A stretch of DNA of 64,000 nt from Thauera aromatica K172 (GTDB lineage: Bacteria > Pseudomonadota > Gammaproteobacteria > Burkholderiales > Rhodocyclaceae): positions 2,604,001 to 2,668,000 of the forward strand of contig NZ_CP028339.1 of assembly GCF_003030465.1 (NCBI RefSeq), written 5' to 3'. The notes under the pieces are model-generated. The model was not told the DNA's origin and ran no database searches. It was given only the letters and a program-made list of their open reading frames with translations. Made by a program: the position numbers and the translations under genes. Below, piece after piece: positions 6,384 through 47,634 of the stretch. How positions within the stretch are numbered: position 1 is the first letter of the stretch; every line of letters starts with the position of its first letter.

Positions 6384-6408
6384 GCCTCCCCGGCGGCGCG
6401 CCCGGCTC

Positions 6409-21478: not shown

Positions 21479-21522
21479 GGATGGCTCCTTCGGGAAAGAT
21501 GGCCGGCGCCGGGCTTCCGGCC

Positions 21523-25120: not shown

Positions 25121-25352
25121 GTATTTTCCCTCTCGGAAAGTGAGGTGCGTTATTCGTTGTTCGAAGTCGTTGTTCGAAGGGATGCCCCCGGTTTGCGCAG
25201 CAATCAGGAGGCTGCACACCGTCTCGTGTACGGGGCGCTCGGTGTCTTGATGTCGGGTTCGCGTTCAGGCGCCGGGCCCCTTGGACGCCTGCTCGCTTCC
25301 AGGCAGGCCGCGACCCGGTCGGCGACAGCGGCCGACGATGAACGCGGCCGAA

Positions 25353-25475: not shown

Positions 25476-26750
25476 CTACGCGCCGGCCTTGTCCGCAACC
25501 CGGACCTGCGCTGCATCCAGGCCACGTTCAGCGGCGGCGCGATGCCACGCTTCGGCGGCGGCCGGATCGGCGGCCTCAATGCAGAATGCGTAATGATGCT
25601 GAGCCTTGCGGTGCCCCTGTTTCGCGGCGGTCTTGAGCAGAGCAGCCGCGTCCTGAGCCTTGCCCTCAGCCAGCAGGCGCCTGGCCAGCCGGTAGCATGC
25701 TTCGGCGTTACCGGCCCGCGCCGCATCCGCCAACCATGCGCGGGACCGCTCTCCGTCCGCCAGGGCGGCCAGCGCCAACCGGCACGCGGCACGGGCGTAG
25801 CCGGCCTCAGCTGCCCGCTCCAGCCAGTAGAACGCCTGGGCGCGTGCGCCAGCCTGCAACGCACGCTGGCCGAGTTCATGCTGCGCCCACGGAACGCCCA
25901 CCTCGGCCGCCTGGCGCAGGAAGCCGGTATTGCGGCCGACGTTGCGCCAGTCGATCGCCCCCTCGTCGCACCGAGCCCCAGCCGCACTTGCCAGCAGCAG
26001 GTCGAGGTCGTAGCCGATCAGGCGGTTTTCCGGACGCTTGCCAATCCAGTTGGCCACGAGCGGTCGCCACTCGGCCGGCAGGGTCGGCGGCAGTTCAGCC
26101 CGCTCCAGGCAGTGCGCCACCACCCGGTAGTCCGGATCGTGGATGGCATCGAAGCGATAAGGCTGGGCTGCAGTGGCCGCGTGGACGATCAACCAGCCGA
26201 GAGCGTAGAAATCGGTCGCAGGCCCATGGCGACCGTAATAACACTCGGGAGCGACAACATCCTGCTTGGCGCGGATGGTTTCGGCACGGCCGTCGCCGAA
26301 GGGTTCGGACACGCCCCAGTCGATCAGCACAAAGCGCTCGCCGTCCATCAGAAGGTTGGACGCCTTGATGTCCTTATGCAGCAGCTCCCGGTCATGAGCG
26401 ACGGCAAGCGTCGCCAATATCTGGCGAACCATGGCCGGCAAGACCGCAGCCGGCAGCGGTCCAGCGTCGCGCAGGCGCCTGTCTAGCCGCACACCCGGCG
26501 CCAGCTCGGTGACGATGCACAGGCGGCCACCGTCATCCCGGCCATGATCGAGCAGCCGAGGCGTGCCGCCACCCCCATCAACCAGCATCAACGCGGCGAT
26601 TTCACGCTCGAAGGTGTTCACATGAGTCGGATCGATGAACACTTTGAGCGCAGCCCCGTCCGGCGCGGCAGGGCCATGACAGAGAAACGCTTCCGCATAG
26701 CCCCCGCCACCGAGCCGGCGGTCCGGCGTCCAGGTGCCCAGCCGGCGCAT
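25476..26750 (-). CDS. Ser/Thr protein kinase with C-terminal Sel1-like repeats
   Basis: This is a 424-residue protein with an N-terminal protein-kinase domain (about 5-265). It has a glycine loop LGGGGYAEAF, the ATP-binding Lys in ALKVF (about 36), a catalytic LLHKDIKASNLLM (RD replaced by KD) and a metal motif IDWG in place of DFG. Residues about 270-410 are Sel1/TPR-like helical repeats (WAQHELGQRAL, ARAACRLALAAL, AEACYRLARRLL). It has no membrane segment. The ATG 26750 shares one base with the stop of the upstream gene (TGATG) and has a strong GGAGGAGGGGAG site. It ends the accessory block. Substrates are unknown; a role in regulating the secretion or modification genes upstream is an inference. 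Confidence 0.85.
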   Translation of the reverse strand: MRRLGTWTPDRRLGGGGYAEAFLCHGPAAPDGAALKVFIDPTHVNTFEREIAALMLVDGGGGTPRLLDHGRDDGGRLCIVTELAPGVRLDRRLRDAGPLPAAVLPAMVRQILATLAVAHDRELLHKDIKASNLLMDGERFVLIDWGVSEPFGDGRAETIRAKQDVVAPECYYGRHGPATDFYALGWLIVHAATAAQPYRFDAIHDPDYRVVAHCLERAELPPTLPAEWRPLVANWIGKRPENRLIGYDLDLLLASAAGARCDEGAIDWRNVGRNTGFLRQAAEVGVPWAQHELGQRALQAGARAQAFYWLERAAEAGYARAACRLALAALADGERSRAWLADAARAGNAEACYRLARRLLAEGKAQDAAALLKTAAKQGHRKAQHHYAFCIEAADPAAAEAWHRAAAERGLDAAQVRVADKAGA

Positions 26751-28639
26751 CAACTCCCCTCCTCCCTGCTTGCCTCGGCGCGTGCCCAATGCGGCAACAG
26801 CTTGGCGTAGAAAGACGCAACATGCTGAAGGGTATCAATGCGGAACCACTGGCGCGTATATTTAAAGCGGATGCCGCCCAGGGCAAGGCCCGGGTTGCGG
26901 GCGAAGTAGATGGATGCCTCCGTATTCACCAGATGCATCACCGCCCAGGCCGCGAGGCGGAGCGCCTGCCAGATCTGTTGCGCCTTCTCCGTCTCCCCGA
27001 TCTTGAGAGCCAATTCATAGGCGCCGAGCAGACCCTCGCAACGCGCACCATCGGCATAGGGATAATCGCCGAACTCGTAATGAAAGGCGCCAGCGTAATC
27101 GGGCCAGGGAGCCTCATCCACCTTGTACAGATGATCGATCATGCGGGCGGCGTCAGCGAATACGAAATCGGCATAGCGTGAGTCGCGCATTTCCGGAAAA
27201 TCCCATGATTCCATGATGCCCATCATCAGCCAGGAATCGGAGGGCACTGCCGTGTACTGCGCGACATGGACCGTCGGCCGTACGTCGATGAGGAACGCAA
27301 GCGCCCGATGCAGGCGTTCGACAAGATCCGCCCGGGTGGCCGAATCGGCCAGATGGAGATACTTGGCAAGCCCGCAGATGGCTTCCCCAGGATAGTAAAA
27401 TGAAAAACGGGGACCGTTCTCCGCTTCGGAGACAGGTTGATCCAGATAGATGTTGTAGTAGATGAACTCGCCGCTCGGTGTGACCTGATTGGCCAGGTGC
27501 CAGGCCAGCCGATCGGTCCAGGGCCGGTAACGCTCGTCGCCGGTCAGCAGCTGGTATTCGGCAAGCAGATAAAGGGCGATGCCGGATCCGCCCAGCTTGG
27601 ATTTCTTCTCGTGATAGACGAAAGCCCCCTCTCGACCACCGTAGTTCCGGACTTGCATCCGTGCAATCAGGAAGTCGATGGCCCGGCGGATATTTACCAA
27701 TGTGCTGCCACGCCTGGCGTATTTCTCGAAATAAACACAGGTCAGGCCGCCACCACCATGGCGCAGGATGTTGTAGAACGGGTTACGCTCCGGATCGCGC
27801 TTCGGGTGCTCGTGGTCGCGGCGCGAGTCAGCCGCCGCATCATAGTAGTAAAGGAAACGGCCGTCCTCCTCTTGGGTGCGGCGGATGTGATCGATCGCCA
27901 GTTCCACCGACCGCGCCACCTTCGCCTCCGTCAGTGGGCCGACCAGGGGATGGCCCCGGAACAGCCGGCACCAGCCGCCGGGCGCAGACACGTAGCTATC
28001 GGTACAGAAACGTTCGAATTTCGCCGTGCGCAGAGCCTGCTCTCCATGGACATTTTCCAGCCACGCCCGCACCTGTCCCATGGTCATGGTCGAGCGCACA
28101 TAGCCATCGCCTGGCGTGAAGATCTGCAGGCGGCCTGCAGCGTCACGGAACATGAATCCATCGATGCCGATCTCGAAATGTCGGTCGCCACGCTGCGTGG
28201 TGCCGACAGCGAAAAAATCCATCGGCCGCGGCGGTTCGACAACGAAATCCATCTGCACACGGAAGGGCTGCACCGCCAGCGCCCCAGCCCGTGAATGCGC
28301 CACCAGCCGGGCCAGCACCGTCGAGAAGGCAAGCTGCGCTCCCTCCCGGCTCGCCCGACTGGCAAGAATGCGCTTACAGCCAGGGGCATAGAGAATCAGG
28401 ATTAGACGGGCAAAGCGCTGCGGAAAGCTCGTAGCGACGAAGAGCCGGTCGATGGCCGCCGTATCGACGCTGCCCGCACGAATGGACGCTTCGATAGCGA
28501 CCATGAATGCACGATCGGCCTCCCCCGGTTCATACACCGGCAAGCGCGATTCCGGTGCTGCGTAATGGCGCGCGTCGCGGTGCCGGATATCCAGTCCCCG
28601 ATCTGACACGTCCAGCCTCCCGCTTGCCGTCGCCAGCAT
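26750..28639 (-). CDS. Alpha/alpha-toroid-like protein of unknown function
   Basis: This protein of about 629 residues matches no family I can name with confidence. Residues about 1-210 form a mixed domain (RLILILYAPGCKRIL, RVQMDFVVEP). Residues about 225-610 show repeated helical hairpins ending in short Gly/aromatic loops: EEDGRFLYYY, SGIALYLLAEYQLLTGDERY, FSFYYPGEAICGLAKYL, ADGARCEGLLGAYELA. This resembles six-hairpin toroids found in glycosidases, epimerases and cyclases. A catalytic site cannot be assigned. There is no signal peptide. ATG 28639 follows GAGGG; it lies 12 bases from the MurF-like ligase gene and overlaps the kinase gene, so the three are very likely cotranslated. Confidence 0.75.
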   Translation of the reverse strand: MLATASGRLDVSDRGLDIRHRDARHYAAPESRLPVYEPGEADRAFMVAIEASIRAGSVDTAAIDRLFVATSFPQRFARLILILYAPGCKRILASRASREGAQLAFSTVLARLVAHSRAGALAVQPFRVQMDFVVEPPRPMDFFAVGTTQRGDRHFEIGIDGFMFRDAAGRLQIFTPGDGYVRSTMTMGQVRAWLENVHGEQALRTAKFERFCTDSYVSAPGGWCRLFRGHPLVGPLTEAKVARSVELAIDHIRRTQEEDGRFLYYYDAAADSRRDHEHPKRDPERNPFYNILRHGGGGLTCVYFEKYARRGSTLVNIRRAIDFLIARMQVRNYGGREGAFVYHEKKSKLGGSGIALYLLAEYQLLTGDERYRPWTDRLAWHLANQVTPSGEFIYYNIYLDQPVSEAENGPRFSFYYPGEAICGLAKYLHLADSATRADLVERLHRALAFLIDVRPTVHVAQYTAVPSDSWLMMGIMESWDFPEMRDSRYADFVFADAARMIDHLYKVDEAPWPDYAGAFHYEFGDYPYADGARCEGLLGAYELALKIGETEKAQQIWQALRLAAWAVMHLVNTEASIYFARNPGLALGGIRFKYTRQWFRIDTLQHVASFYAKLLPHWARAEASREEGS

Positions 28640-28651
28640 CAAAACCCTCTT

Positions 28652-30094: not shown

Positions 30095-30263
30095 CACAGC
30101 GGGGCACTCCATCCTTGAACTCGGCAAGGGGATTCAACTCCAGCAGCAGATCCGCCGTCCGTGAAACCGTTCAACTTCCACTTCAGGGAAAGCAGTGGCG
30201 GAACCCCTTTTACAGGCGGCCCCGCCCCTCCATCTGGAAAAATCGACTCAACCCATCGCCGGA

Positions 30264-31852
30264 TCACCACTCGATTTTGTCGATGCTATCGAAGTCGCTC
30301 GCCCCCCCATCACCCGGCGCCTGCCCTCCGCCCTGATCATCATCGTGCGCTGATGGACCGCCATTGCCTCCGTCGACAATCTGCTGGCCTTCGACCTCAT
30401 TGGTCCAGCCACCCGACGCATCACTACCGCCGTCACCGAACTCGACCTCCACCACATCGGTCCAGCTGGCGCTGCTTGACGCCATCGGGCCGCCACCGCC
30501 CGAATCGCCGAAAACAAACAGGTCGTTCCCGGAATCGGACAACGCATCGTCGGCATCGAGCTGTTCATCAGCAACATTAGCGCCGCCCGAACTGCCCGCC
30601 CCCCTGCCGGAGCTGCCAGCACCCGAGTTCTCGCTGTTTTCGGCGTTGTTGTTGTCGCCGGAGTTGCCCGGCGCGTTCTGATCGCCGTTGCCGTGGCCGT
30701 TGTTGTCCTTTGAATGATCGGGATCATCGTCCGCATCAGAGTCGGCATCTGCATCGGAGTCGGCGTCCGCATCGGAGTCGGCGTCCGCATCGGAGTCGGC
30801 ATCTGCATCGGAGTCGGCATCTGCATCGGAGTCGGCATCTGCATCAGAGTCGGCGTCCGCATCAGAGTCGGCGTCCGCATCAGAGTCGGCGTCCGCATCA
30901 GAGTCGGCGTCCGCATCAGAGTCGGCGTCCGCATCGGAATCGGCGTCCGCATCAGAGTCCGAATCATCATCACCAGGTTCTATCACCGAAGTCGGGGACG
31001 TAGCGCTGGTCGGGCTGGTCGCCGTCGTCGCGCTGGTCACCGTCGTCGCGCTCGTGGCCGTTGTGGCGCTCGTGGCCGTTGTGGCGCTGGTGGCCGTGGT
31101 GGCGCTCGTCGCCGTCGTGGCACTCGTGGCCGTCGTCGCGCTCGTTGCCGTCGTGGCGCTCGTGGCCGTCGTGGCGCTGGTCGCCGTTGTCGCACTGGTG
31201 GCCGTCGTCGCACTGGTGGCCGTCGTCGCGCTCGTCGCCGTTGTGGCACTCGTTGCGTCGTCGCGCTCGTGGCCGTCGTGGCGCTCGTCGCCGTCGTTAC
31301 AGTCGTCGGCGTAGCATCATCTTCAAAATCTGCCACGGTACCAGTACCGGAATAAGTGCTGGCGTCCGGATCTGAAACCCCCATCGTCGTCACAGCTTCC
31401 TGCTCGGAAGCAGCGGACGTGCCCTCGCGGGATTCTTGAGCCTGCTCGAACTCGAGGGCGGCCTCCAGGAGGGGCTGATCTACAAGAGGCACAGGATCCT
31501 GATTGCCGGAGCTCCCTGTCTCCTGCAAGGGAACCTCGAGATTTTCCATGCGGCGGGAATCCAGGATGGCACTGCCATCATCACGGACCAGGCCTTCGTC
31601 CAGAAGTATCTCTTCCTGGCTGGCGTCGATGCTGCGCACGTCCGTCTGGACATTCTCGTTGCCGGAACCGTCAACGCGCTCAGGCGGCGTCGAACTGTCC
31701 TCGGTGCCCTGCGCAACACGCCCGCTTTCGTCACGGCTGAGAACGGTCAGCTCATCAAAGAGCTGCGCCTCACTCGTCAGCGTTTCCGACGGCTCACTGG
31801 TGGTTGCCGATGCCGTAGGATCCTGCGCCGTTTCAGCCATGATGTTCCCCAT
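30264..31852 (-). CDS. Acidic repeat protein, candidate type I secretion substrate, interrupted by a frameshift
   Basis: Two adjacent open frames (31852 to 31037, and the frame ending at 30264) are one gene split by a missing base in the 17-bp repeat unit 31255-31271. Restored, it encodes about 529 residues: an acidic N-terminal region of about 175 residues, 16 Ser-Ala-Thr-Thr-Ala-Thr units, 12 Asp-Ser-Asp-Ala-Asp-Ala units, a Gly/Asn/Ser linker, and an acidic C-terminus containing [15 protein letters not shown] and ending [10 protein letters not shown]. There is no signal peptide. The GNDLFVFG motif resembles RTX-type C-termini of type I exported proteins (family knowledge), and the exporter genes lie just upstream. 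As sequenced, translation from 31852 would run into an Arg-rich tail and stop at 31037. A start at ATG 31840 has a better ribosome site (GGGGA). Confidence 0.75.
30733..30948. repeat. Twelve 18-bp tandem repeats encoding Asp-Ser-Asp-Ala-Asp-Ala
   Basis: Twelve uninterrupted 18-base units of the type GCATC(A/G)GA(G/A)TCGGC(G/A)TC(C/T) are read on the minus strand as DSDADA, with a degenerate thirteenth at 30949-30960. Variation among units is at synonymous positions, so the peptide is under constraint. No spacers are present, so this is not a CRISPR array. Confidence 0.95.
31021..31307. repeat. Sixteen 18-bp tandem repeats encoding a Ser/Ala/Thr hexapeptide
   Basis: Sixteen head-to-tail units of the type GCCGTCGTCGCGCTCGTG are read on the minus strand as repeated SATTAT. 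Fifteen units are 18 bases; the unit at 31255-31271 is 17 because one C is missing after 31256 (GTTGCGTCG instead of GTTGCCGTCG), which causes the frameshift in the host gene. Confidence 0.95.
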
Positions 31853-32018
31853 CCCGATTTTTTAGCCCTCGCATCCTAGGTGCATGAGCTGCAATAAAAC
31901 AGACATCCAGAGGTTATAGGTCCGGGAAAGCGTACCGACGACGAAATGCAGGCCGACGCGGCCCCCTGTAAGCCATCAGGGCATGGGAGGCCGCAGACGA
32001 GGAGCGGTATGGCGAATC

Positions 32019-34454: not shown

Positions 34455-34469
34455 GGGGCAACGGCCTCC

Positions 34470-35855
34470 TCAGCGCTCCTGGAAGGAACGCGACACGACA
34501 TCGATGATTGGTTTGGTGAGATAGGTGAGCAGCGTCTTCTCACCTGTCACGATGTCCGCCTCCAGGCTCATGCCCGCCTGCAGTAGGTAGCGCCCCGGCG
34601 TATCGCCGACACTGGGGCGATCGAGAGTGACCCAGGCCCGATAGTAATGGGTTCTGCCGTCCTCGCTGGCGACGCTCGATGCCGAGATCCGCTTCAATTC
34701 ACCGGTCGCGTAGCCGAAGCGGGTGTAGTCATAGCTGGTGATCCGCAGGTTCACACGCTGACCGGTACGAACATGGCCGACATCCTTCGGTGCGATGCGG
34801 ATCTCGGCCTCGAGCGGGGCCTGGTCGGGCACCAGCTGCATCAGGAGCGCGCCCGGCTGAATGACCTGGCCGACAGTCTGCACTTTCAGATCCTGGATAT
34901 AGCCGCTATGCGGCGCCCGGATGACGAGCCGGTCGACGCGGGCCTGCAGGCGCTGCAGGGTTTCCTCGACCTCGGCCATTTCGGCACGGACGCTGCCCAG
35001 TTCGTTCAGCGCATCGCGGCGGAGCTGATTTTCGGTATCGGCACGGCGCGTCCGGACTTCGGCCAGCTCCTGCTGATTGACGTCGATTTCCTCCCGCAAG
35101 CGCGCAACTTCGCCGTCCGCGGTGACCTTGGCGCGGCGCGTCTCAAGCAGGACGGTACGATTGACGAGCCGGCGGGCCGCCAACTCCTCGCGCATCCGCA
35201 ACAGATCTGCACTCAGCGCCTGCTGCTCCCGGGCCGCGCTCAGTGCTTTTTCCTGCTGCACCAGGCGTTGCATGCGCTGATTGATCTGGTGATCGAGAAT
35301 GGACAGCGTGGACTTCCGGGTTTCTATCTGCTGCCGGTACAGCTCCTGCTGACCTGTCAGCAGATCGGCATGATTGCCGGCAAGCGGTGCCAGATCGGGC
35401 GGGCGGTCTTCGGCGAAGGCACTGATCCGCTCGGCGCGCAACGTGAGCGCCACCAGGCGAGCTTCCATCTGCCGCAGATCGGCCGTTGCCTGACTGCCGT
35501 CGATGCGCAGCAACACCTGACCCTCCTCGACCAGCATGCGCTCCTCGACCGGTATTTCGGCAATAACACCACCATCCAGGTGCTGCACCACCTTGATCTT
35601 TCCGACCGGAACGATCTCGCCCGGCGCACGCGCCACCTCCTTGACGTTCGTCAGTCCGGCCCAGAAGAAGAAAGCGACGACAGTGATGGCGATGATGCCG
35701 AGCATCGGGCGCACGTAAGCCGGCAACAGCTCTTCCTCGATCTGCACCGTTTCCGACAACAGGCTGCGCTCACGGCTGCCGAGCAGATTGCGCCCCTCGC
35801 TCCCCGCAGCGCGGCCGGTTTCGTTATCCTTTTTCTGCCAGCCCTTCAGAATCAT
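34470..35855 (-). CDS. HlyD-family type I secretion membrane-fusion protein
   Basis: This is the periplasmic adaptor of about 461 residues linking the inner-membrane ABC exporter to the TolC-type channel. A cytoplasmic N-tail is followed by one membrane helix (about 49-69, MLGIIAITVVAFFFWAGL), a lipoyl-like half (GKIKVVQHLDGGVIAEI), a long coiled-coil hairpin (about 130-300), then the second lipoyl half and the HlyD C-terminal strand region (RIAPKDVGHVRTGQRVNLRITSYDYTRFGYATGELKRIS). ATG 35855 overlaps the stop of the ABC gene (ATGA). The length fits the HlyD/LapC group. Confidence 0.92.
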   Translation of the reverse strand: MILKGWQKKDNETGRAAGSEGRNLLGSRERSLLSETVQIEEELLPAYVRPMLGIIAITVVAFFFWAGLTNVKEVARAPGEIVPVGKIKVVQHLDGGVIAEIPVEERMLVEEGQVLLRIDGSQATADLRQMEARLVALTLRAERISAFAEDRPPDLAPLAGNHADLLTGQQELYRQQIETRKSTLSILDHQINQRMQRLVQQEKALSAAREQQALSADLLRMREELAARRLVNRTVLLETRRAKVTADGEVARLREEIDVNQQELAEVRTRRADTENQLRRDALNELGSVRAEMAEVEETLQRLQARVDRLVIRAPHSGYIQDLKVQTVGQVIQPGALLMQLVPDQAPLEAEIRIAPKDVGHVRTGQRVNLRITSYDYTRFGYATGELKRISASSVASEDGRTHYYRAWVTLDRPSVGDTPGRYLLQAGMSLEADIVTGEKTLLTYLTKPIIDVVSRSFQER

Positions 35856-38800
35856 TTGCGTATCCCCAGCGCGAGCCTGTCCTTGATGCGATCGAACGGC
35901 CCGATGGCGCCAAGCGCACCGTTCTCCATATAAATGACCGTGTCTGCCAGGCGCATGTGGCTCGGGCGGTGAGAGACCATGAGCAGCGTGCAGCGCCCGC
36001 GGAGCCATTCGATGCAGTGCAGCAAGGCCTCCTCGCCGGCGGTATCGAGGCCATTGCCCGGCTCATCGAGCATGACCACCGAAGCCGGCTTCAGCACCGT
36101 TCGCGCCAGCGCCAGGCGCTGCCGGAAACCGTTCGGCAGCTGTTCGGAGCGGCTGTTGGAGATGCGCGTCTCGATCCCCTCCGGCAAGGCTTCGACATCC
36201 TCGGTGAGGCCGGCCATTCCCAGCGCCCAGCGGATTTCCGCGTCGGTCGCCGCCGGGTGCGCCAGGCGCAGGTTCTGCGCCACCGTCCCGTAGAACAGGT
36301 CGCAGTTTTGCGGCATGTAGCTCAGGCGGGAGCGCAGGTCGTTGACCGGCAACTGGCGGATATCGAGATTGTCGAGGCGGATGGAGCCCGCCTGCGGAGT
36401 GAAGCTCCGCGCAACGAGCTTGAGCAGAGTCGACTTTCCGGAACCGTTCGAGCCGGTGATCACCACTACCGCTTTCGGTGCGATGGTGAAACTGACGCCC
36501 AGCAGCGCCGGATCGGCATCGCTGGCATAGCGGAAGGAAACGCGCGAAAAGGCAAGCGCCCCCTCGAACGGCGGCCGGATGGTCTGCCGCACGCCGCCGT
36601 CGCGCTCCCCCGGCAGACGCATCAGGCGCTCGATCTGAGTCGCGCTGCGACGGATCTGCGCCAGCGACGTCGCAGCAAGGAAGAAATTCTGGATCGGCCC
36701 GGTGATACGCCAGACGAGCATCATGGTGGCGATCATGACGCCGCCGGTGATGCTGCCGTTGATGGTGCCGACCGCCGAAACCGACAGCGCTGCCAGGCCG
36801 GTGATCATGTTCAGCATCTGCGCGCCCCCGCTGATGCGGGCCTGCACCTGGTGGCTGCGAAAGCTGGCCATCGCAGCCTTCGCACTAAGCTCGCGGTAGC
36901 GTTCGATCCAGACGTCACGAGCCCCTGCTCCGCGGATGACGCGCATCTGGGCAATCGTTTCATTGAGGAATTCCCAGCGAGCCGTGGTTGCCTGCGTTGC
37001 CCGCGTGGAACTGCGCTCGCTCAGATGCTGCGTTCCCAGCGCCAGTAGCAGATAGGCCAGCGCAGCACCGATGATCACCCCCAGCACCCAGGGGTTGAGC
37101 AGGGCCAGCACGGCGATGATGATCAGATTGGCCGGAAAATCGAAGGCGATGGTGGTCAGCGGGCCAACGAAGAAATCGCGCAGACTCTCGAAATTGCGCA
37201 GGCGGCTAACCTGACGGTTTACCGAAGCGCTCTCCGTTGACGAAGACGGCAAGGCAACGATGCGCTGGAACAGTGACGTGCCCAGAATGTACTCGGTACG
37301 CCCGCCGACATGGGCGATAACCCGGCTTTTCAGGCGGCGCAGCAGGAAATCGAGCGTCAGCGCGATGGCCACGCCCCCGAGCAGATAGGCCAGCATGACC
37401 ACGTCGCCAGTGGGCAGGACGTGGTCGTACATCGATTTGACGAAGAGCGGCGCAGCCAGCGCCAGCAGCGTGCTGAAGACCGTCAGGATGAACGCGAGCG
37501 CGATGTGCCGGCGAAAGCGGTACGCCAGTCCCAGGAACCAGGAGCCATCCCGGCGTACACGGTCGGGATGTTCGGCCGGGCGGAACACATAGGCTTCTCC
37601 CCGCTCACTGCCGGCCTCGATCACTTCCTCACACCCGCCGCCACCGTCGAAGCAACGCAGGCGACCGTCGTCCAGTCGTTCGAGAACGACCTTGGCCGAC
37701 CCGTCGGGGGGAATGAACAGGCAGGGATAGAGCCGGTGATCGAGCGTGGCGAGGCTGGAGGAGAAATGCCGCGGCAGGAGGTCAAGGTTGGCCATCGCGC
37801 TGCACAACCCCGAGAGATCGAGGGACGACAGCATATGCGGCATTGCTTCAGCCAACTCGCGGCCGCTTCCCTGCCAGCCGATGGCCCGGAGCAAGGGAAG
37901 CAGGCAAACGGAAAGGTCGGACTCGTTCCGGTAATGCTGGCGCACGATCACTTCCAGCTGGTCAACGTGCACCGGCCGTTCGATGGTGGCGGAATGCGCC
38001 CCCGGAACGGCCGGTTCGCCGCTGCTACCCGTGCCGGCCTCGGCCAGCCGGCCAGCGCTCAGGGTCAGCACGCGGTCTGCCAGCGAGATCAGCGATGGAC
38101 GGTGCGTGACCAGGATCAGCGTGCAGTCCCCCTTGCGCCTGGCGAGGTAATCACGCAGCAACTGGTCGGCGGCCATGTCGAGCGAAATGTTGGCCTCGTC
38201 GAAAAGGATCACGCTCGGCTGGTGGACGAGGACGCGGACGATCGAAATGAGCTGCCGCACACCGGCAGGCAGCGTCTCGGCATTGGCTTCGCCGAGTCGC
38301 GTCTCGTAGCCCAGCTTCATGCCGGAAACGACGCGGTCGAGCCCCATTTCCCGGGCGATGCCGAGGGCCACTTCGTTCAGGCCGGGATCGAACATCGTCA
38401 TGTTCTCGAGAATGCTGCCGGTGACCAGGGTGCCGGTCTGCGACAGCAGCGCGACCTGGCGCTGAACGCTGTCGGCGTTGAACTCATCGAGCCGGCGCCC
38501 ATCGATGCGCACCTCGCCCGCCTCCGGGATCTCCAGTCCGTTGATCAGGGCCAGCAGGCTGCTCTTGCCCGAACCGCTCTCGCCGCGGATGGCCAAGCAC
38601 TCGCCGGCGCGCACGTGCAACGACAGATCGCCGAACAGGGTCTTGCCCCCCTCGCGCCCGAGATGCACACCGTCAAGCTCGATCGTTTCCCGGACCGGCG
38701 GCAGATCCGGCCGGTCGTGGTCGTCGGTGCAGGGCATTTCGGCCACCTCCCGCAGGCGCGCCTGCGCAGCCGAAAAGGCCTGGTAGCGAAGCCACACGGT

Positions 38801-39727
38801 GAGGCTGCGGCGCAGGGGCTGCAGCGAGCGCACCGAGAGCAGCATGCAGGCGGCCAGCCCGCCCGGCGTCATCTCACCGGCAAGCACCGCCAGGGCGGCG
38901 GCAAAGACGACGCAGACAATCATGATCTGCGAGAACAGCATCCCGATCGCAACCGCCATCGAACTGCCGAAGGTCAGTGTCTCGCTCATTTCGGCGTTGC
39001 TCGCCTGCAGGCGCTCGTAGCGGCGCAGCATCTGCGCCTCCATCATCAACGTCTTCACCGAATGAATGCCGGACAGCACTTCGATCAGGAAATTGATCCG
39101 CCGATCGTCCATGACGTGCCGGCGCTCGACCTGGTGCCTGAGCCAGTTGCCGAAGCGGACGATCACAAGCATGAAGGCGAGCAGCAGGACGATGGGAACG
39201 ATCACCACCCAACCGCCGATAACGTGGATGACAGCAAGGAAAAGGAAGACGAAGGGCAGGTCGAACAGCACCAGCAACGCCTGACCGGAATAGAAGTCGG
39301 CCACCCTGCTTGCCGAAGCGACGCGCTCCGCATGCACACCGGGCTCCTCGCGCTGCAGGCAGCGCAGCGGTACGCGCATCAGCCGGCTGAGAGCATTGAC
39401 GCTGGCCACATGCTCGAAACGGGCCCCCAGCCAGCCGGTCACCAGGCTATTGACGGCGCGCAGCAGTTCTTCCAGGACGAGGCAGGCGAGGATTCCGATC
39501 ACAAGCAGGACCAGCGTCTCAATGGACTGGTTGGCCACCACCCGGTCCATGATCTGCAGGATGGCCATCGGCAACGCCAGGCCGAGGACATTGTGCAGGA
39601 AGGCAGCCAGCGCCAGCCCGGGCAGGACATTGCGCAGGTCGGGAGAGCGGAATACGTCGCGCAGGGGAGCGAAGACTTTCTGGGTACTGTCTTCGTCGGA
39701 AAATGTAGTCTTGAGGAAACGCGACAT
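35852..39727 (-). CDS. Tandem-fused type I secretion ABC transporter
   Basis: This is a 1291-residue protein with two complete exporter halves in one chain. Half one: membrane domain about 35-320, NBD with Walker A GESGSGKSS (about 382-390), a degenerate signature LPAGVRQ and Walker B VILFDEA. Residues about 585-715 form a segment resembling a C39-like accessory domain without a catalytic Cys-His pair. Half two: membrane domain about 735-1025, NBD with GSNGSGKST (about 1092-1100), signature LPNGFRQ and VVMLDEP. Type I exporters are normally half-transporters, so the fusion is unusual. I use ATG 39727; a GTG at 39733 overlapping the luxR-type stop is also possible. It is followed by hlyD with an ATGA overlap. 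Confidence 0.9.
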   Translation of the reverse strand: MSRFLKTTFSDEDSTQKVFAPLRDVFRSPDLRNVLPGLALAAFLHNVLGLALPMAILQIMDRVVANQSIETLVLLVIGILACLVLEELLRAVNSLVTGWLGARFEHVASVNALSRLMRVPLRCLQREEPGVHAERVASASRVADFYSGQALLVLFDLPFVFLFLAVIHVIGGWVVIVPIVLLLAFMLVIVRFGNWLRHQVERRHVMDDRRINFLIEVLSGIHSVKTLMMEAQMLRRYERLQASNAEMSETLTFGSSMAVAIGMLFSQIMIVCVVFAAALAVLAGEMTPGGLAACMLLSVRSLQPLRRSLTVWLRYQAFSAAQARLREVAEMPCTDDHDRPDLPPVRETIELDGVHLGREGGKTLFGDLSLHVRAGECLAIRGESGSGKSSLLALINGLEIPEAGEVRIDGRRLDEFNADSVQRQVALLSQTGTLVTGSILENMTMFDPGLNEVALGIAREMGLDRVVSGMKLGYETRLGEANAETLPAGVRQLISIVRVLVHQPSVILFDEANISLDMAADQLLRDYLARRKGDCTLILVTHRPSLISLADRVLTLSAGRLAEAGTGSSGEPAVPGAHSATIERPVHVDQLEVIVRQHYRNESDLSVCLLPLLRAIGWQGSGRELAEAMPHMLSSLDLSGLCSAMANLDLLPRHFSSSLATLDHRLYPCLFIPPDGSAKVVLERLDDGRLRCFDGGGGCEEVIEAGSERGEAYVFRPAEHPDRVRRDGSWFLGLAYRFRRHIALAFILTVFSTLLALAAPLFVKSMYDHVLPTGDVVMLAYLLGGVAIALTLDFLLRRLKSRVIAHVGGRTEYILGTSLFQRIVALPSSSTESASVNRQVSRLRNFESLRDFFVGPLTTIAFDFPANLIIIAVLALLNPWVLGVIIGAALAYLLLALGTQHLSERSSTRATQATTARWEFLNETIAQMRVIRGAGARDVWIERYRELSAKAAMASFRSHQVQARISGGAQMLNMITGLAALSVSAVGTINGSITGGVMIATMMLVWRITGPIQNFFLAATSLAQIRRSATQIERLMRLPGERDGGVRQTIRPPFEGALAFSRVSFRYASDADPALLGVSFTIAPKAVVVITGSNGSGKSTLLKLVARSFTPQAGSIRLDNLDIRQLPVNDLRSRLSYMPQNCDLFYGTVAQNLRLAHPAATDAEIRWALGMAGLTEDVEALPEGIETRISNSRSEQLPNGFRQRLALARTVLKPASVVMLDEPGNGLDTAGEEALLHCIEWLRGRCTLLMVSHRPSHMRLADTVIYMENGALGAIGPFDRIKDRLALGIRK

Positions 39728-39729
39728 GC

Positions 39730-41406
39730 TCACTCTACTTGTGCTTCGATGACGGCCTGGCGCAACAGCGGATGCGCGAAGCTCAGACGGCCGGCTTCGT
39801 CGCGCCGGATGACCCCGCTCGCCACAGCCAGGCCGGCGGCGGCTTCCGCGCGCTGCACGGTGTCGCCCATCGCAGCAGCCAGGGCCGCCGGCTCCACCGG
39901 CGCATCGGAAAGGGCCACGCTGCGCAGCAGGAGACGGTCAAGGCCGAGGTTGTCGAGGCGCGAGCCGATCACGAAACGCAGCGACAGGGGCAAGGCCGAA
40001 GTGGTTTTCCGGGCGGCAAGCTGACGGGCAAACAGCGGCACGCCGGTAGCGATGCGGGCAATGGTGGCGACCTGCCCCGATGGCATGCCCCGTGCCGCAA
40101 GCTCGCGCTCCACCAGGGCTTCGATGGCTTCCTGCGACATACGCCCGAGACGCAGCCTCTCGGCTTGCGACGACAGGGCTTCCGGAAAACGCCGGCCGGC
40201 AAGCAGCATCACCACCCCGCAAGCCGCGTCCGCTGCGGCCGCCAGCCGGGCAATGACGTCACCCGGCAGCAGATGGCAGTCGTCGATGATGAGTAGCCGC
40301 ACTGCATCATCGGCCCGCCGCGTCAACGCCGCGAGAATGGTGTCGACTTCCACTGGCGCGCCAGAAGACAGTTCGTAGACACGGGCGCCGCCACTGTCGG
40401 GCTGGCTGGTGAAGTGGCGCACCGACCACCGCAATACCGCACCCCGGCTGGCCAGATGGCGGCAGAGGTGAGACTTGCCCATCCCCGTTTCGCCTTCCAC
40501 CAGGATGAGCCGCCCCTTGTCCGGGCTGGCCGCCAACCTGGTCTCCAGAAAGGTCAGTTCCTCGTCACGGCCGAGCGGCGGCTCCCAGGACGTTTCGGTG
40601 CAGCAGGGCAGGCGGTCCAGTCCGGAAAAGGGCATTTCCGGTGTGGCGAACACCGTTCCACAGGCGCTCAGTGCCTGCAGCAGTTCCCTCACGGAAGTAC
40701 CCAGCCGGAGCATTCCCGGCGTGGCTGCGATCGCCGACTCACGGGCCTCGGCGATCGCAGGCGTGGCGATGGCCTCGCCCGACCAGCCGCCGAGCCGGTT
40801 CATGCTGGCAATCGCTAGGCCGGCGGTGAGGCCGCCACGCAAGGCATCCCGCAACGAAGAATCGTGTGCCGCCAGCGTATCCGCCAGCAGATGGCCGGCG
40901 CGCAGGACGAGAAAAAGATCGTGCTCGCCGGGCGACTGGATGCCGAAGATCAGATCGCCGGCATGGCCTCGCCGAGCCAGGAACAGCGCATCGTGATCGA
41001 ATGCGTAGCTGGCCAGGGTCTGATGCAGCAGCCGGCCGGCAGAGGCCGTCGCCGTTTCCGGCAGCACGACGCTGAGGACAATGCAGGGACGGCGTTCGAG
41101 AAGGCCCTCGCCTGCGACTAGGCTGGAAACCTTGTGCGTCTCCGGCGCACGGGCAGCGATTTCGCGTGAAACTGCCATTGTCCGGTTGTGGACGCCCAAT
41201 TTCTTGAACAATGCAACGACATGCTGCTTTACGGTCCCCAAGCCGATACCGAGTTCATTGGCAATTTCCTTATTGACCTTGCCCGCCCGCAGCAATTCGA
41301 GAATCTGCTGCTGGCGGGCAGACAGCTTCGGCAATCCCGTGGACGGAACGCTGCCGGCGAACAGGCACGGTTCATCCTGTGGCGAGACTCGATCCACAAA
41401 GCGCAT
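39730..41406 (-). CDS. LuxR-type regulator with N-terminal HTH and C-terminal P-loop ATPase
   Basis: This is a 558-residue regulator with an inverted domain order. A LuxR/GerE HTH lies at about 27-80 (LSARQQQILELLRAGKVNKEIANELG, then TVKQHVVALFKKLGV, read in two parts). A middle domain at about 105-250 resembles a degenerate nucleotide-cyclase fold, which is a guess. An AAA/STAND-like ATPase begins near 278, with Walker A VEGETGMGKS (about 303-312) and Walker B LLIIDDCHLL. Typical MalT-type proteins carry the HTH at the C-terminus. The ATG shares a base with the stop of the TolC-type gene (TGATG), and the gene sits inside the secretion operon, so it probably controls it. Confidence 0.85.
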   Translation of the reverse strand: MRFVDRVSPQDEPCLFAGSVPSTGLPKLSARQQQILELLRAGKVNKEIANELGIGLGTVKQHVVALFKKLGVHNRTMAVSREIAARAPETHKVSSLVAGEGLLERRPCIVLSVVLPETATASAGRLLHQTLASYAFDHDALFLARRGHAGDLIFGIQSPGEHDLFLVLRAGHLLADTLAAHDSSLRDALRGGLTAGLAIASMNRLGGWSGEAIATPAIAEARESAIAATPGMLRLGTSVRELLQALSACGTVFATPEMPFSGLDRLPCCTETSWEPPLGRDEELTFLETRLAASPDKGRLILVEGETGMGKSHLCRHLASRGAVLRWSVRHFTSQPDSGGARVYELSSGAPVEVDTILAALTRRADDAVRLLIIDDCHLLPGDVIARLAAAADAACGVVMLLAGRRFPEALSSQAERLRLGRMSQEAIEALVERELAARGMPSGQVATIARIATGVPLFARQLAARKTTSALPLSLRFVIGSRLDNLGLDRLLLRSVALSDAPVEPAALAAAMGDTVQRAEAAAGLAVASGVIRRDEAGRLSFAHPLLRQAVIEAQVE

Positions 41407-43463
41407 CAGTATTCTCCCGAAGTGCTTGCCCGGCCGTCGATCTGCGTTGCGGCCATTCCTGTTGCCAGGGTGGCCGGCATGCCGGATGGTTCTCCGGTGG
41501 TCTTCGTCACCAGTTCGACCAGATTCGTCCCGCTGTCTGCCGCCGGCTGCAGGAGTGAGCGGCTGCCGGCATTTTCCTGCGGCACCCGTGAGGCATCGGC
41601 CAGCTCTGCCGAAGACAGGGTCCGGCAACGCTGCAGCTGCGACATCAGGCGGCTGCAAAAGCCGTTCGCCTCCTCCAGCGTATCGAAATGCGAGACAAAA
41701 ACGCGATACCACGAAGCGCGCATCTGTCGTTCGCTGGCAATCTGCCCCTGCAGACGCGACAGCAGCCTGCGCCCGGCCATCTGCTCCGGGAAACGGGCGT
41801 TCAGATCCCGCCAGAGGTGTGCGATACCGGCACGGTCCTGGACGCCGGCGATCTCGACGACCCAGTGTTCATAATCCGGAGCCGGTGCGTAGGATTGCCC
41901 GGGCGACGCCGATGGCACACCGGCCAGTGGCACCGGGCCGGCGGACAAGGGCAAGGGCACACCATCAACCGGAGGCGGGTCGTCGGGCACACCTCCGCCG
42001 AGCGCACCGAATAATGCGACCAGGCCCTTATGGCGCTCCATGTTGATCCGGTGCAGCTCGTCGAGATTGCGGTGATAAGTCCGCTGCGTATCGAGCAGGG
42101 TCAGGTAGTCGATGGCGCCGGCCTGGTAAGACTCGCTGCTCAGCTCCCATGCCCGGTGCGCAGCATCGGTGGCCCGTCGTTGCGCTTCGAGGCGCCGCCC
42201 GTTCAGATCGATAGCCGCGATGGCGTCATCGACCTCACGGATCGCGGTGTAGAGGACCCGGATGTAGGTCTCGACCATTTCCTCGTGCAGGGCGCGCGCA
42301 AGAACCACTTCATTGGAACGCTTGCCATGGTCGAAAAGCGTTGCGGTGAGGTTGGCGATCAGGTTCCAGAACAAGTTGTGCGAGTCAAACAGCCGCGAGA
42401 AGACGAGACTGCCATAACCAAGCTGCGCGCTCAGATCGAGCGCGGGCAGCAACCGTGCGCGGGCCACGTCGATATCGGCGTCGGAGGCACGCAGGCGGGA
42501 TTCGACCGCACGCACGTCGGGGCGCTGCAGCACCAGATGAGCGGGGATGCCGGGCAGAGCCTCGGGGAAATTCAGCGAATCAAGCCCGCGCTCGGTCAAC
42601 CCGAGCACGGAAGGCGTCGCGCCGACCAGCGTCGCCAGGCTGTTGGCGACATTTTCGCGCTGCAGCTCCAGCCCCGGGATCGTCGCCTGAACCGAGAATA
42701 CGGCGGCCCGCTGCTGCTCGAGGTCGGTGATCGTGGCGTCGCCGATTTCGGTGCGCACTCGAACCGATTCGAGCATGTCGCTGAGCACGCTTTCGGTCTC
42801 CCGGGCAACCCGGATGCGATCGTTGAGGGAGAGATATTCAACGTAGAGGCTCGCCGTGCTTGCAATCAGCACCCGCCGGACATCGTCGCGCTGATAGGCT
42901 GCGCGCCCCAGTTGCAACTCGGCCGATTCCGTCAGTGCCTCGCGCTCACCCCAGAGATCAACACGCCAGTCGGCACGCAGGCCCAGCTGATAGACGCGGC
43001 GCGATTCCGGCGTTCCTCCTTCTTGCACCGAAGCAACGCCGCCTCGGGGCGACTCCTGGAGCGCCCGGTAAGGCAGGGTCAGCACCGGCAGCTCATCGGC
43101 GGCCGCTTGGTCGGCGCGCGCCTTGGCCTGCGCGATGCGCAAGGACGCAATGCGCAGGTCAGCGTTGTTGGCAATCGCACGGTCGACGAGGGCATCCAGC
43201 TCCGTGCTGGACAGCCCGCGCCACCATTCGGCAAGCTGCGCCTGCACCAGCCCACCGGCAGCCGGGCGTTCCCCTTCGGACAGCTCCTGCTGCGCCTGAG
43301 GCAGCACCGGATCCGCCGGCTGCTTGAAGCGAGCCGGAACCGGTACCGGTGGAACCTCGTAGGTGGGCCGCTTGATGGCGCAGCCGGAAAGAAAAAAAAT
43401 GACCAGCAGTGCTCCCAGGCGCCCGCTCCTCCAGCGGCCGCTGGCTCGGAAGGATTCAGGCAC
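41406..43463 (-). CDS. TolC/NodT-type outer-membrane lipoprotein with C-terminal SPOR-like domain
   Basis: This is a protein of about 685 residues. A lipobox (VIFFLSGC, Cys about 28) and an outer-membrane efflux channel follow (about 60-480), containing the typical helical repeats (LDALVDRAIANNADLRIA, VLQRPDVRAVESRLRASDADI). After a Pro-rich linker (about 490-520) comes an extra domain (about 530-620) with two repeats of the SPOR style, HWVVEIAGVQDRAGI and WYRVFVSHFDTLEEANGFC. SPOR domains bind denuded peptidoglycan at division sites. The start is GTG 43463, ten bases after GGAG; TTG 43472, overlapping the ParA stop (TTGA), is an alternative. Confidence 0.85.
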   Translation of the reverse strand: MPESFRASGRWRSGRLGALLVIFFLSGCAIKRPTYEVPPVPVPARFKQPADPVLPQAQQELSEGERPAAGGLVQAQLAEWWRGLSSTELDALVDRAIANNADLRIASLRIAQAKARADQAAADELPVLTLPYRALQESPRGGVASVQEGGTPESRRVYQLGLRADWRVDLWGEREALTESAELQLGRAAYQRDDVRRVLIASTASLYVEYLSLNDRIRVARETESVLSDMLESVRVRTEIGDATITDLEQQRAAVFSVQATIPGLELQRENVANSLATLVGATPSVLGLTERGLDSLNFPEALPGIPAHLVLQRPDVRAVESRLRASDADIDVARARLLPALDLSAQLGYGSLVFSRLFDSHNLFWNLIANLTATLFDHGKRSNEVVLARALHEEMVETYIRVLYTAIREVDDAIAAIDLNGRRLEAQRRATDAAHRAWELSSESYQAGAIDYLTLLDTQRTYHRNLDELHRINMERHKGLVALFGALGGGVPDDPPPVDGVPLPLSAGPVPLAGVPSASPGQSYAPAPDYEHWVVEIAGVQDRAGIAHLWRDLNARFPEQMAGRRLLSRLQGQIASERQMRASWYRVFVSHFDTLEEANGFCSRLMSQLQRCRTLSSAELADASRVPQENAGSRSLLQPAADSGTNLVELVTKTTGEPSGMPATLATGMAATQIDGRASTSGEY

Positions 43464-43468
43464 CTCGT

Positions 43469-44248
43469 TCAAGCTCCGTGGCGCCGCGTCAATGTGTCAT
43501 GCAGGGCGACGTATTCTTGTGACAACTTGTGCTTCGGATCGAGGTGGATCATCGGCGTCGATTGCGCATGCGATTCTTTGATCTTCACCGAAGCCGAAAG
43601 ATAAGGCTGGAGCACGGTGAGGCCTTCATCGATCAGTTCCTGCACCACCTTTTGCGGCAAGCTGGCACGCGGCTGAAATTGGTTGACGACGATGCCCTCT
43701 ACTTCCAGGCCACGGTTGTGGTCGGACTTGATCTCCCGCACGCTCTCCAGGAGCGAATACAGCGCCTTGCGCGAGAACTCGTCGCAATCGAAGGGAATAA
43801 GGCAGGCATCGGCTGCGATCAGCGCCGAACGGGTGAAGAAGTTGAGCGCCGGCGGAGTGTCGATGAACACGCAGTCGAAATCATCGCTCAGTTCGTCGAG
43901 CGCATCGCGCAGCTTGTAGATCTTGTAGCGCGATTCGAGCTTGCCCTGCAGTTCTTCGAGTTGCGGGTGGGATGGCATCACGTGCAGTCCCGCGAACGGA
44001 GTGACGGCGACGAAATCCGTGATGGCGCGCGGGTTGAGCTTGAAGTTCAGGGTCTGATCGAAAAAATCCGCCAGCGTGGCCTCGAGCGCACCTCCTCCGG
44101 CCCCGAGCAGGTACTGGGTGGAATTGCCCTGGGGATCGAGATCGACCACCAGCGTGCGCAGCCCCTGTCGTGCGCTGATTGCCGCCAGGTTGCAGGCGAT
44201 GGTGGACTTGCCGACTCCGCCCTTCTGATTGAACACCACACGTCGCAT
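43469..44248 (-). CDS. ParA-family ATPase
   Basis: This is a 259-residue deviant-Walker ATPase: MRRVVFNQKGGVGKSTIACNL at the N-terminus, DLDPQGNST and FIDTPP for the A' and B motifs, and IVVNQFQPRASL near residue 185. Such ATPases position plasmids, chromosomes or protein complexes such as chemotaxis arrays and secretion machines. No ParB partner or parS-like sites are visible nearby, which favours a role in placing the secretion apparatus. ATG 44248 follows GGAGGATAGAAG. It leads the block of overlapping secretion genes. Confidence 0.9.
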   Translation of the reverse strand: MRRVVFNQKGGVGKSTIACNLAAISARQGLRTLVVDLDPQGNSTQYLLGAGGGALEATLADFFDQTLNFKLNPRAITDFVAVTPFAGLHVMPSHPQLEELQGKLESRYKIYKLRDALDELSDDFDCVFIDTPPALNFFTRSALIAADACLIPFDCDEFSRKALYSLLESVREIKSDHNRGLEVEGIVVNQFQPRASLPQKVVQELIDEGLTVLQPYLSASVKIKESHAQSTPMIHLDPKHKLSQEYVALHDTLTRRHGA

Positions 44249-44371
44249 TCTTCTATCCTCCGGTTGGGTCGCGGGATTATGCAGCAGGATCCACGCGTCC
44301 GGCCGGAGTGCAAACGGCATGAATCAAGGCTGTATTCGGGATAATGCCGCCAGTGCGGCTACCCTCCGGTC

Positions 44372-45067
44372 TCACGCCGGACCGGGAGGCTTGCGTCCGG
44401 GATTGTATTTCTCTCCGAAGCTGCAATTGAAATTGCAGCCATGGCAAACCGAAGGAGCCACCAGATCGAGCGCCAGGTGCAGTGCATGATTGCAGGCGCG
44501 AAGCTGCACGCCCCGGTCGCGCAACAGCTTCATGCTTGCAGCGGCCTGAGCCTGATCACCGCGGGCACGCGAAAGATCGAGTACAGCGCCTGCCTTGACG
44601 CAGCGCAACAGGTGCAGGATCGCCGGCAGGCTGCCGAGGTCGCCGGAAAAATTCACCCGCCCGTCACGGTACTGGATCGAGTAGGCCTTGCTGAGGGTGA
44701 CGATGTGAGCGAGCAGGGCATCGCCGAGCTCACGGGTGAACCTGAGCGCCAGCGTGTTCTTGCCCCGGCGAATGAGCGCAGCCGAACGCGACAGGGTTTC
44801 ACCGCCCAGATCGAGCGTCACCACGCCCGGCTCATTCGCTGCCGTTTCGCTGTCTCCGTGAGTGAGGGCAACGGAGGATTCAAGCAGGCAGCCGGAGGCC
44901 GAGATATTGAGCATCACACCATGGTAATGGGAGGGGCCGATATCGAAACTGGCCGTGGGTGGCTGCGTCGAATGCCAGCGCCCCACCCGTCTGCGGTCGC
45001 CGGCACGACGATCGGACGTGCCGCGATCGAAAGTCCGTCGGTCGGTAAAACGTCGTTCGGGCGTCAT
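44372..45067 (-). CDS. PilZ-domain protein with a Cys-rich C-terminus
   Basis: This protein is about 231 residues. The N-terminal region is Arg-rich (RRFTDRR, DRRAGDRRRVGR) and is followed by NISASGCLLES, together matching the RxxxR plus (D/N)xSxxG pattern of c-di-GMP-binding PilZ domains. The domain runs to about residue 125. The C-terminal half is helical and ends with SVCHGCNFNCSFGEKYNP, a cysteine cluster of possible metal-binding type. ATG 45067 lies nine bases after GGAG; upstream in-frame starts (TTG 45136, ATG 45082) lack one. The gene lies 123 bases before parA, and may couple c-di-GMP to the block; the link is inferred from position. Confidence 0.8.
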   Translation of the reverse strand: MTPERRFTDRRTFDRGTSDRRAGDRRRVGRWHSTQPPTASFDIGPSHYHGVMLNISASGCLLESSVALTHGDSETAANEPGVVTLDLGGETLSRSAALIRRGKNTLALRFTRELGDALLAHIVTLSKAYSIQYRDGRVNFSGDLGSLPAILHLLRCVKAGAVLDLSRARGDQAQAAASMKLLRDRGVQLRACNHALHLALDLVAPSVCHGCNFNCSFGEKYNPGRKPPGPA

Positions 45068-45269
45068 GGGCCGGAACTCCATGCATATGCCGGCGCACCG
45101 GACGGGCGAGCGGCAGGAGAAGGAAATGGTCGACAAGGATAAGGCAATACGGCCTACAAGTTCGTCATGAACAGCGCCCCTTTTTGCACCTTATTGCGCA
45201 CTACGTCACACTGACCGCATCCAGCCAGCGAAGCGGCCTCCCGGGCCCACGGACCGTGCGGGCCTCCGC

Positions 45270-47495: not shown

Positions 47496-47634
47496 CGGGA
47501 TTCCTCGTTGGCCGTGCATTGTAATCCGGCGATCACGGACCGATGGCCGTCCGGAGGCGGACCGCACCGGAACGGGGTGGACGGCGGGTGCCTGTGCAGA
47601 GCGCTCATTTGCAAAAAATCAACAGTTGATGAAG

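Follow-up and report, generated by a model that had tools for sequence, protein, structure and literature searches.

What does a block of eleven co-oriented gene functions achieve, in which the parts of a protein exporter lie beside several enzymes and an acidic repeat protein? The question is raised by the minus strand of a 64,000-nucleotide stretch of Thauera aromatica K172 (contig NZ_CP028339.1, positions 2,604,001 to 2,668,000; the window in what follows), where these functions occupy positions 25476-45136 and are flanked by uvrD (45270-47567) and by the gene of a malic enzyme, which we name maeB (22823-25219). A first-pass annotation had listed the eleven functions and proposed that the block makes, modifies and exports the acidic protein. 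The functions are present where it had placed them, as judged from the positions of open reading frames (ORFs) and from Pfam and NCBIfam profiles (with curated cut-offs for NCBIfam), which support the PilZ, ParA, TolC-SPOR, LuxR-ATPase, tandem ABC, HlyD, APH, Mur_ligase_M and Pkinase assignments. We consider it reasonably probable that the block is an inserted type I secretion system (T1SS) locus for an adhesin-like (SDADAD)n surface protein, joined to a dedicated cassette that modifies the repeat; the action of the enzymes on the repeat, its chemistry and secretion itself are what we infer. Modification and export, as first proposed, are made probable by the recurrence of the enzyme genes near acidic repeats or T1SS genes elsewhere. 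The enzyme genes encode a toroid-class protein (TOR), a Mur-ligase-like protein (MUR), a Ser/Thr kinase (KIN) and a putative nucleotidyltransferase joined to an APH kinase fold (NTA).

The TOR family

TOR founds a protein family that has no PDB match and no recognised description in the open literature. The earlier label of "toroid-like" stands at the level of fold class only, as the window protein matched no Pfam family (0 families at E<=0.1), no NCBIfam model and, searched by sequence and by profile, no PDB entry. Among 25 aligned family members, ten match C5-epim_C weakly and eight LANC_like, with further weak matches to a GH88 model; these similarities to C5-epimerase, LanC and GH88 models suggest a barrel able to hold an extended acidic chain. 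Across the same 25 divergent sequences R294, H295, E420, D469, W471, R534, R601 and D603 are invariant or near-invariant.

Near-invariance of charged and aromatic residues, as in enzymes, bears on an alternative in which TOR has no catalytic role and binds the disordered acidic repeat as its chaperone or anchor, while the ligase, kinase and NTA act elsewhere. Such a role would suit a repeat that is extreme in composition and probably disordered, and would suit the many TOR genes that have no ligase or kinase nearby. It sits less well with the conserved residues, with the repeated fusion of TOR to Mur ligase and kinase domains described below, or with the likely signal or membrane segment with which some TORs begin (by eye, in L090, L111 and L035), and we regard it as unlikely.

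A single-sequence search of 369 genomes of the window's class found TOR in four, the window genome included, and a profile search of 324 class genomes gave three full-length TORs (G000, which is the window genome, G309 and G194) and eight partial toroid-class matches. Against plasmids, tblastn returned three partial matches for TOR and none for NTA. A scan of a collection of species genomes yielded 455 TOR relatives, and the family is found in several phyla; the locus counts given here come from the best 80 of these 455, with 40 regions of 20 kb as controls.

TOR and alternating-aspartate repeats

The acidic repeat protein of the first-pass annotation is present, but it is encoded by two ORFs and not one. 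The reading frame shifts within a tandem tract (18/54 bases; 31009-31297), which implies either a disrupted gene or a slip in the sequencing. The C-terminal half has 75 acidic against 3 basic residues and carries 39 alternating aspartates, the intervening position X of this (XD)n pattern being Ala in 25 cases and Ser in 14. The N-terminal half has no NCBIfam match and belongs to a family shared with Oceanospirillum (L042) and a member of the Rhodospirillaceae (L045), and by eye also with Lamprobacter (L211), while a C-terminal motif is shared with L042 and G309.

Repeats of this kind accompany TOR well beyond the window. Of the 80 TOR loci, 10 contain a run of 10 or more alternating aspartates, against none of the 40 controls (Fisher p 0.03), and such runs are present in three of five further TOR loci (L034, L037 and L038; not L035/L036 or L039); acidic repeats share a locus with TOR in 13 loci. 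At the level of whole genomes, one (SD/TD)n query was run against 49 TOR genomes, which hold 50 of the 80 loci, and against the 369 class genomes. With the query's own genome included, 42/49 TOR genomes matched at E<=1e-8 and 40/49 at E<=1e-15; without it the latter figure is 39/48, and 13/19 outside Melainabacteria and unnamed lineages, as judged by title. The same query matched 5/369 class genomes at 1e-8 and two at 1e-15 (G309 and G424), both of them TOR-positive, so that none of 365 TOR-negative class genomes matched at the stricter threshold; in the three weaker genomes the longest run in the matching loci is 8. The test can miss, since the window genome escaped the query despite carrying the repeat. 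TOR often accompanies these repeats alone, and for this reason it is taken as the core of an enzyme set that would act on (XD)n repeats, with the other enzymes tailoring the product.

The residue at X varies between genomes (Ala, Ser, Thr, Asn, Ile, Val, Gly and others) and the aspartate is constant. Ser/Thr as the common target was rejected, X being 95-100% Ala in the L042, L045, L078 and L103 genomes. The proteins that carry the repeats vary too: retention-module proteins score over the cut-off in L034 and L037 and under it in L087, L037 having Ca2+-stabilised adhesin repeats as well; an Agrobacterium plasmid encodes a BapA_N protein; and FHA-like proteins occur in Gastranaerophilales, with lipoprotein-like and other scaffolds recognised by eye. 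The FHA-like proteins of L193, L210 and similar loci end in a PilZ-like domain, which Pfam confirms in one case; such a domain is odd for an exported protein.

Neighbours and fusions of TOR

Within the 80 TOR loci, of unequal length and many reaching contig ends so that counts are lower bounds, HlyD is found in 6, a Mur-type ligase in 12, an ATP-grasp protein in 5, a kinase in 7 and NTA in 1, although the Mur match of L097 and the kinase match of L054 may be unrelated; the 40 control regions gave one kinase match alone. TOR is fused to MUR in L037, L041, L042 and L100, in the reverse order in L048, and to Pkinase-Sel1 in L049 and L110. T1SS genes adjoin TOR in nine loci (L034, L037, L038, L049, L087, L100, L109, L110 and L119) from at least three phyla. 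The nearest relative, a marine gammaproteobacterial metagenome-assembled genome (L040), keeps the gene order, with NTA (6023-8458, directly upstream of TOR) 56%, TOR 58% and the kinase 52% identical; its locus also contains an (SDAD)n protein, LapG and LapD. The neighbourhood search suggested with the first-pass annotation bore out recurrence of TOR, MUR, KIN and NTA by acidic repeats, T1SS genes or both in distant genomes, sometimes as fusions. The LuxR-ATPase gave matches of helix-turn-helix length only in the loci compared. A gene family with weak similarity to HExxH metalloproteases (L037 7088-8161, L040 16736-17722 and others) is present in 7/80 TOR loci and has no match in the window.

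A survey of picked loci, which is not a count, reveals a range of other candidate tailoring genes. ATP-grasp proteins occur in L038, L040, L041, L044 and L109, and PGA_cap domains in L044, L049, L050 and L100. A radical SAM-SPASM protein lies near TOR in L104 (17501-18997), an LPG_synthase_C-like protein in L107, and a protein combining GT2 and PGA_cap in L049 (13996-16614), which resembles the lasso-peptide epimerase MslH far below the NCBIfam cut-off. GNAT and SET domains are present in L044. In the Arcobacter sp. EP1 locus L109, which has ABC, HlyD and TOR, a 1523-aa ORF contains ATPgrasp_YheCD, Fic and Mur_ligase_M; directly after the TOR, ATP-grasp and Mur genes come genes of 2-aminoethylphosphonate synthesis (18230-21765), namely phosphoenolpyruvate mutase and phosphonopyruvate decarboxylase, both over their cut-offs, and, at the locus end, the start of a 2-aminoethylphosphonate transaminase gene. 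These aminoethylphosphonate genes are a possible source of a primary amine substituent. Two loci have single ORFs of more than 2100 aa, one in Lamprobacter (L044, 82-6876) with GNAT, PGA_cap, Mur ligase, ATP-grasp, RimK and SET, and one in Halochromatium (L043, 464-6784). In G309 a GT41, O-GlcNAc transferase-like gene (L033, 14957-16423) lies close to TOR and to a retention-module protein with (TD)n repeats.

The combination of a Mur ligase with PGA_cap recalls CapB/CapA of poly-gamma-glutamate synthesis. This pair, found in L044, L050 and L100, raises the alternative that the enzymes make a separate surface polymer (poly-gamma-glutamate-like or phosphonate-bearing) or a small molecule, which the acidic protein displays or binds, and the aminoethylphosphonate genes of L109 point the same way. 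Against this, TOR keeps company with (XD)n repeats also in places that lack a nearby ligase, and no flippase or capsule exporter was recognised by eye in the ORF tables of 24/80 loci, which were not scanned systematically. In the window block itself, Pfam revealed no protein with PGA_cap. We judge a separate polymer or small molecule to be quite unlikely.

The Mur-type ligase

Mur-type and ATP-grasp enzymes activate carboxylates, which fits the aspartate side chains of the repeat, as a kinase fits the serines of (SDAD)n. MurF itself depends on a catalytic Glu and a carbamylated Lys. The window MUR resembles MurF in keeping the P-loop and both of these positions, but has YDQSTRAELRG in place of YNANP and does not pass the MurF model (113 bits, cut-off 288.6). 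In a tree of 16 TOR-linked Mur ligases, the window's included, and 26 MurF from relatives, all 26 MurF lie on one side of a branch with support of 100 and the window MUR lies outside; the tree is a quick, unrooted one with support from the Shimodaira-Hasegawa-like approximate likelihood ratio test only, and long branches and uneven composition were flagged. The window MUR falls in a set of eight, all TOR-linked, from Pseudomonadota, Planctomycetota, Campylobacterota and Thermodesulfobacteriota. Across this set the P-loop and Glu are kept in 8/8, the Lys in 7/8 and the His in 6/8; YNANP is lost in 8/8 and replaced by YD[QH] in 7/8. A duplicate of housekeeping MurF was rejected on the position outside the 26 MurF and the loss of YNANP. 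Sixty relatives gave weak matches only (best 7.5e-18, 25% identity), which are taken as their housekeeping MurF.

The exporter and its substrate

Curated models bear out the secretion parts named in the first-pass annotation. The C half of the double ABC protein scores 771 bits against TIGR03375 (cut-off 693.1) and HlyD 360 bits against TIGR01843 (cut-off 208.65). The outer-membrane channel passes the NodT model TIGR01845 (313 bits, cut-off 210.05) and stays under that for type_I_sec_TolC (TIGR01844, 79.9 bits vs 225.15), with an OEP domain at 7e-44. Judged by these models, the ABC, HlyD and TolC-family parts form a predicted T1SS, and the acidic repeat protein would fit as its substrate, a role proposed from the gene neighbourhood.

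A separate Lap-type system lies elsewhere in the window genome (C1:2976000-3008000; L127 and L128). It comprises a 1072-aa retention-module adhesin with a T1SS C-terminal domain, ABC, HlyD, a LuxR regulator, LapG, LapD and a TolC-like protein, with no match to TOR, MUR, KIN or NTA. LapG and LapD (PF16448, PF06035) are each matched once in the genome, beside this T1SS and at a distance of about 340 kb from the block. The acidic protein of the window has no retention-module match in NCBIfam and no [TPA]AAG site in its sequence. A classical Lap system was rejected for the window on these grounds: LapG and LapD are elsewhere, and the retention module and LapG site are missing.

Several observations weigh against the link between TOR, the repeats and the exporter. 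No (XD)n match was found in 7/49 TOR genomes (L043, L046, L047, L057, L072, L111 and L119) and a weak one in 2/49 (L090 and L105); G194 is TOR-positive with no match to the query in the class-genome search, and the L039 stretch has TOR and MUR with no alternating-aspartate run. Conversely, three TOR-negative class genomes carry alternating-aspartate runs, (DC)28, (DG)32 and (DR/DS)27. The p-values are limited by whole-genome controls drawn solely from the window's class and by the many TOR genomes of a single lineage, Gastranaerophilales. Most of the 80 TOR loci have no ligase or kinase match, so that ligase chemistry is not the common core. Related exporters also recur without the enzyme genes, an outcome that the first-pass annotation had counted against a single system: one is the genome's own Lap system and the other lies in G278 (L134), where a T1SS with TolC-SPOR adjoins an acidic protein of 1093 aa that carries the GNGDQ[ND]APG motif twice, and where neither TOR (at E<=1e-5) nor an (XD)n run was found. 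The GNGDQ motif was found in 3/369 class genomes (the window genome, G309 and G278), each time adjoining T1SS genes.

An insertion between uvrD and maeB

The genus sample consisted of 29 genomes, the window genome and 28 relatives. In 14/28 relatives uvrD and maeB lie on a single contig with a gap of 1054-3247 bases, against 20053 bases in the window genome; in the remaining 14 they are on different contigs or far apart, or (G023) uvrD has no match. Five relatives' intervals were fetched (L120-L124). All five contain parA, in the orientation opposite to the window and with 82-85% DNA identity to it, and by blastn no other block gene, PilZ likewise having no DNA-level match; one longer interval, when read, held unrelated ORFs beside parA. 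The G+C content is 62-66% across the block, 67-73% to its left and 61-70% right of uvrD, so that composition backs an insertion on one side only. On this comparison the block is one insertion between uvrD and maeB, probably a horizontal one.

ParA is an old resident of this interval that has been flipped here, as parA sits in the same interval of all five relatives, and so is probably a bystander and not a part of the machine. The suggestion that ParA places the machine was consequently not borne out, and as the simplest reading ParA was set aside as a machine part. The window parA is only 82% identical in DNA to that of the closest relative, G025, whose uvrD is 91% and maeB 96% identical.

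The enzyme-free exporters of L127/L128 and G278 would be expected if exporter and enzymes were two unrelated gene groups, neighbours by chance. The block seems more than a chance assembly, since its genes are absent from the interval in relatives and recur together in distant genomes: nothing of it but parA is found in the five intervals, nine loci from three or more phyla have T1SS genes next to TOR, and acidic repeats share a locus with TOR in 13. Chance adjacency is therefore very improbable.

Proposed mechanism

In the mechanism that we propose, TOR would hold the extended repeat and would either modify the aspartates pointing in one direction or present them to a modifying enzyme. MUR, with its ATP-site residues kept, would form amides between these carboxylates and an amine, and the product would have cyanophycin-like side chains on a ribosomal backbone. 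The amine may be 2-aminoethylphosphonate, as suggested by the genes of the one Arcobacter locus. KIN and NTA might act on the interspersed serines or activate a substituent, and the modified protein would leave through ABC-HlyD-TolC. A broader proposal is tentative, and we place it somewhat short of probable: TOR would represent a new class of protein-modifying enzyme that recognises any (XD)n strand and modifies its aspartates, which ligases, kinases, glycosyltransferases, radical-SAM or epimerase-like enzymes would go on to tailor. Several phyla would thereby convert a ribosomal repeat into a decorated surface polymer resembling polyaspartate, with type I secretion or another route for its export, and the product would amount to a giant ribosomally synthesized and post-translationally modified peptide (RiPP) on an adhesin.

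Features of the block

The coordinates are collected in the table. The gene overlaps of 1-4 bases described in the first-pass annotation hold, as ORFs, for parA/TolC (4) and LuxR/ABC (4), but TOR and the kinase overlap by 40. Gaps of 166 and 136 bases flank the acidic protein gene on its two sides. The nucleotidyltransferase half of NTA has no Pfam match and is presumed from a motif, GS..SDID..D, read by eye.

Table 1. Features of the block in window coordinates, in order of transcription
Feature	Position	Strand	Evidence or remark
PilZ-domain protein, 254 aa, first block gene	44372..45136	-	Pfam PilZ 6.1e-06
ParA-family ATPase, 283 aa	43469..44320	-	AAA_31 6.9e-38; ancestral gene, inverted here; probably a bystander
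TolC/NodT-type outer-membrane channel with C-terminal SPOR, 688 aa	41406..43472	-	OEP 7e-44, SPOR 3.1e-05; TIGR01845 313 bits
LuxR-HTH and AAA ATPase regulator, 660-aa ORF, true start probably downstream	39730..41712	-	GerE 1.9e-15, AAA_22 1.1e-07
Two type I secretion ABC exporters in a single 1293-aa chain	35852..39733	-	ABC_tran x2, ABC_membrane x2; TIGR03375
HlyD membrane-fusion protein, 512-aa ORF, true start probably downstream	34470..36008	-	TIGR01843 360 bits
NTA: putative pol-beta-type nucleotidyltransferase with APH kinase-fold, 811 aa	32019..34454	-	APH 2.6e-16
Acidic repeat protein, N-terminal half (ORF 1 of 2)	31037..31852	-	Shared N-terminal family
Acidic repeat protein, C-terminal half (ORF 2 of 2), alternating-aspartate array	30264..31040	-	Composition
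18-base tandem array coding (SDADAD)n	30728..30959	-	TRF, 12.9 copies, 93% match
MUR: Mur-ligase-like, putative amide ligase, 491 aa	28652..30127	-	Mur_ligase_M 4.3e-18; tree; motifs
TOR: toroid-class protein, 630 aa, proposed core enzyme	26750..28642	-	Family alignment; (XD)n link
KIN: Ser/Thr protein kinase with C-terminal repeats, 437 aa	25476..26789	-	Pkinase 2e-21

Comparison with known systems

The closest exporter is that of the LapA/LapG/LapD system. The block has a related TolC-ABC-HlyD exporter, the TOR loci L040, L041 and L049 contain LapG and LapD, and the repeat proteins of L034 and L037 have retention modules over the cut-off, with that of L087, cut by a contig end, under it. [TP]AAG sites were recognised there by eye. 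The window protein differs in having neither a retention module nor a [TPA]AAG site.

Cyanophycin synthetase CphA1 is built from ATP-grasp and Mur-ligase-like parts. It resembles the proposed system in forming amide bonds on aspartate side chains (PMC9262961, PMC9427784), and both ATP-grasp and Mur domains lie near (XD)n repeats in TOR loci. CphA builds its own poly-Asp backbone, however, whereas that of the window is genetically encoded, and the sole Mur domain of the window MUR is the middle one, with no ATP-grasp in the block by Pfam. In L109 the 1523-aa ORF joins ATPgrasp_YheCD and Mur_ligase_M in a single chain.

Graspetide and other RiPP loci share carboxylate-activating ligases, radical SAM-SPASM proteins, HlyD/ABC exporters and a ribosomal substrate (PMC8939145). 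The window substrate is instead a large repeat protein and its ligase is of Mur type; membership of the graspetides was rejected, there being no ATP-grasp ligase among the block proteins in Pfam or NCBIfam. Membership of the lanthipeptide synthetases was rejected as well, the window TOR having no LanC domain; 8/25 family members do match LANC_like weakly. The terms toroid and Mur ligase are absent from the main text of PMC8939145, and the gene set is not mentioned in the covered sections of the ATP-grasp-system literature (PMC4431377, PMC8939145). More widely, no description of the gene set was recognised in the open PubMed Central full text that was searched, and within that scope the first-pass remark of knowing no such described system stands.

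Staphylococcal Ser-Asp surface adhesins have long alternating-aspartate dipeptide repeats, as here, and are glycosylated by the dedicated enzymes SdgA/SdgB (PMC3794999). The window repeat scores far below the cut-offs of SdrC, SdrD and ClfA in NCBIfam, a low-complexity similarity only. Unlike that system, the block has no glycosyltransferase among its proteins (Pfam/NCBIfam), several TOR-linked repeats have almost exclusively Ala at X, and the exporter and enzymes are others; glycosyltransferases do lie beside TOR elsewhere (GT41 in G309, GT2 in L049). From the window organism to gut Gastranaerophilales, an undescribed family is tied to a simple and recognisable substrate, alternating aspartate, and the function of TOR becomes testable with a single peptide. 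If the proposal is true, it would explain the presence of Mur and ATP-grasp ligases beside adhesin exporters, and would add a further logic for decorated surface polymers beside the glycosylated Ser-Asp adhesins and non-ribosomal cyanophycin.

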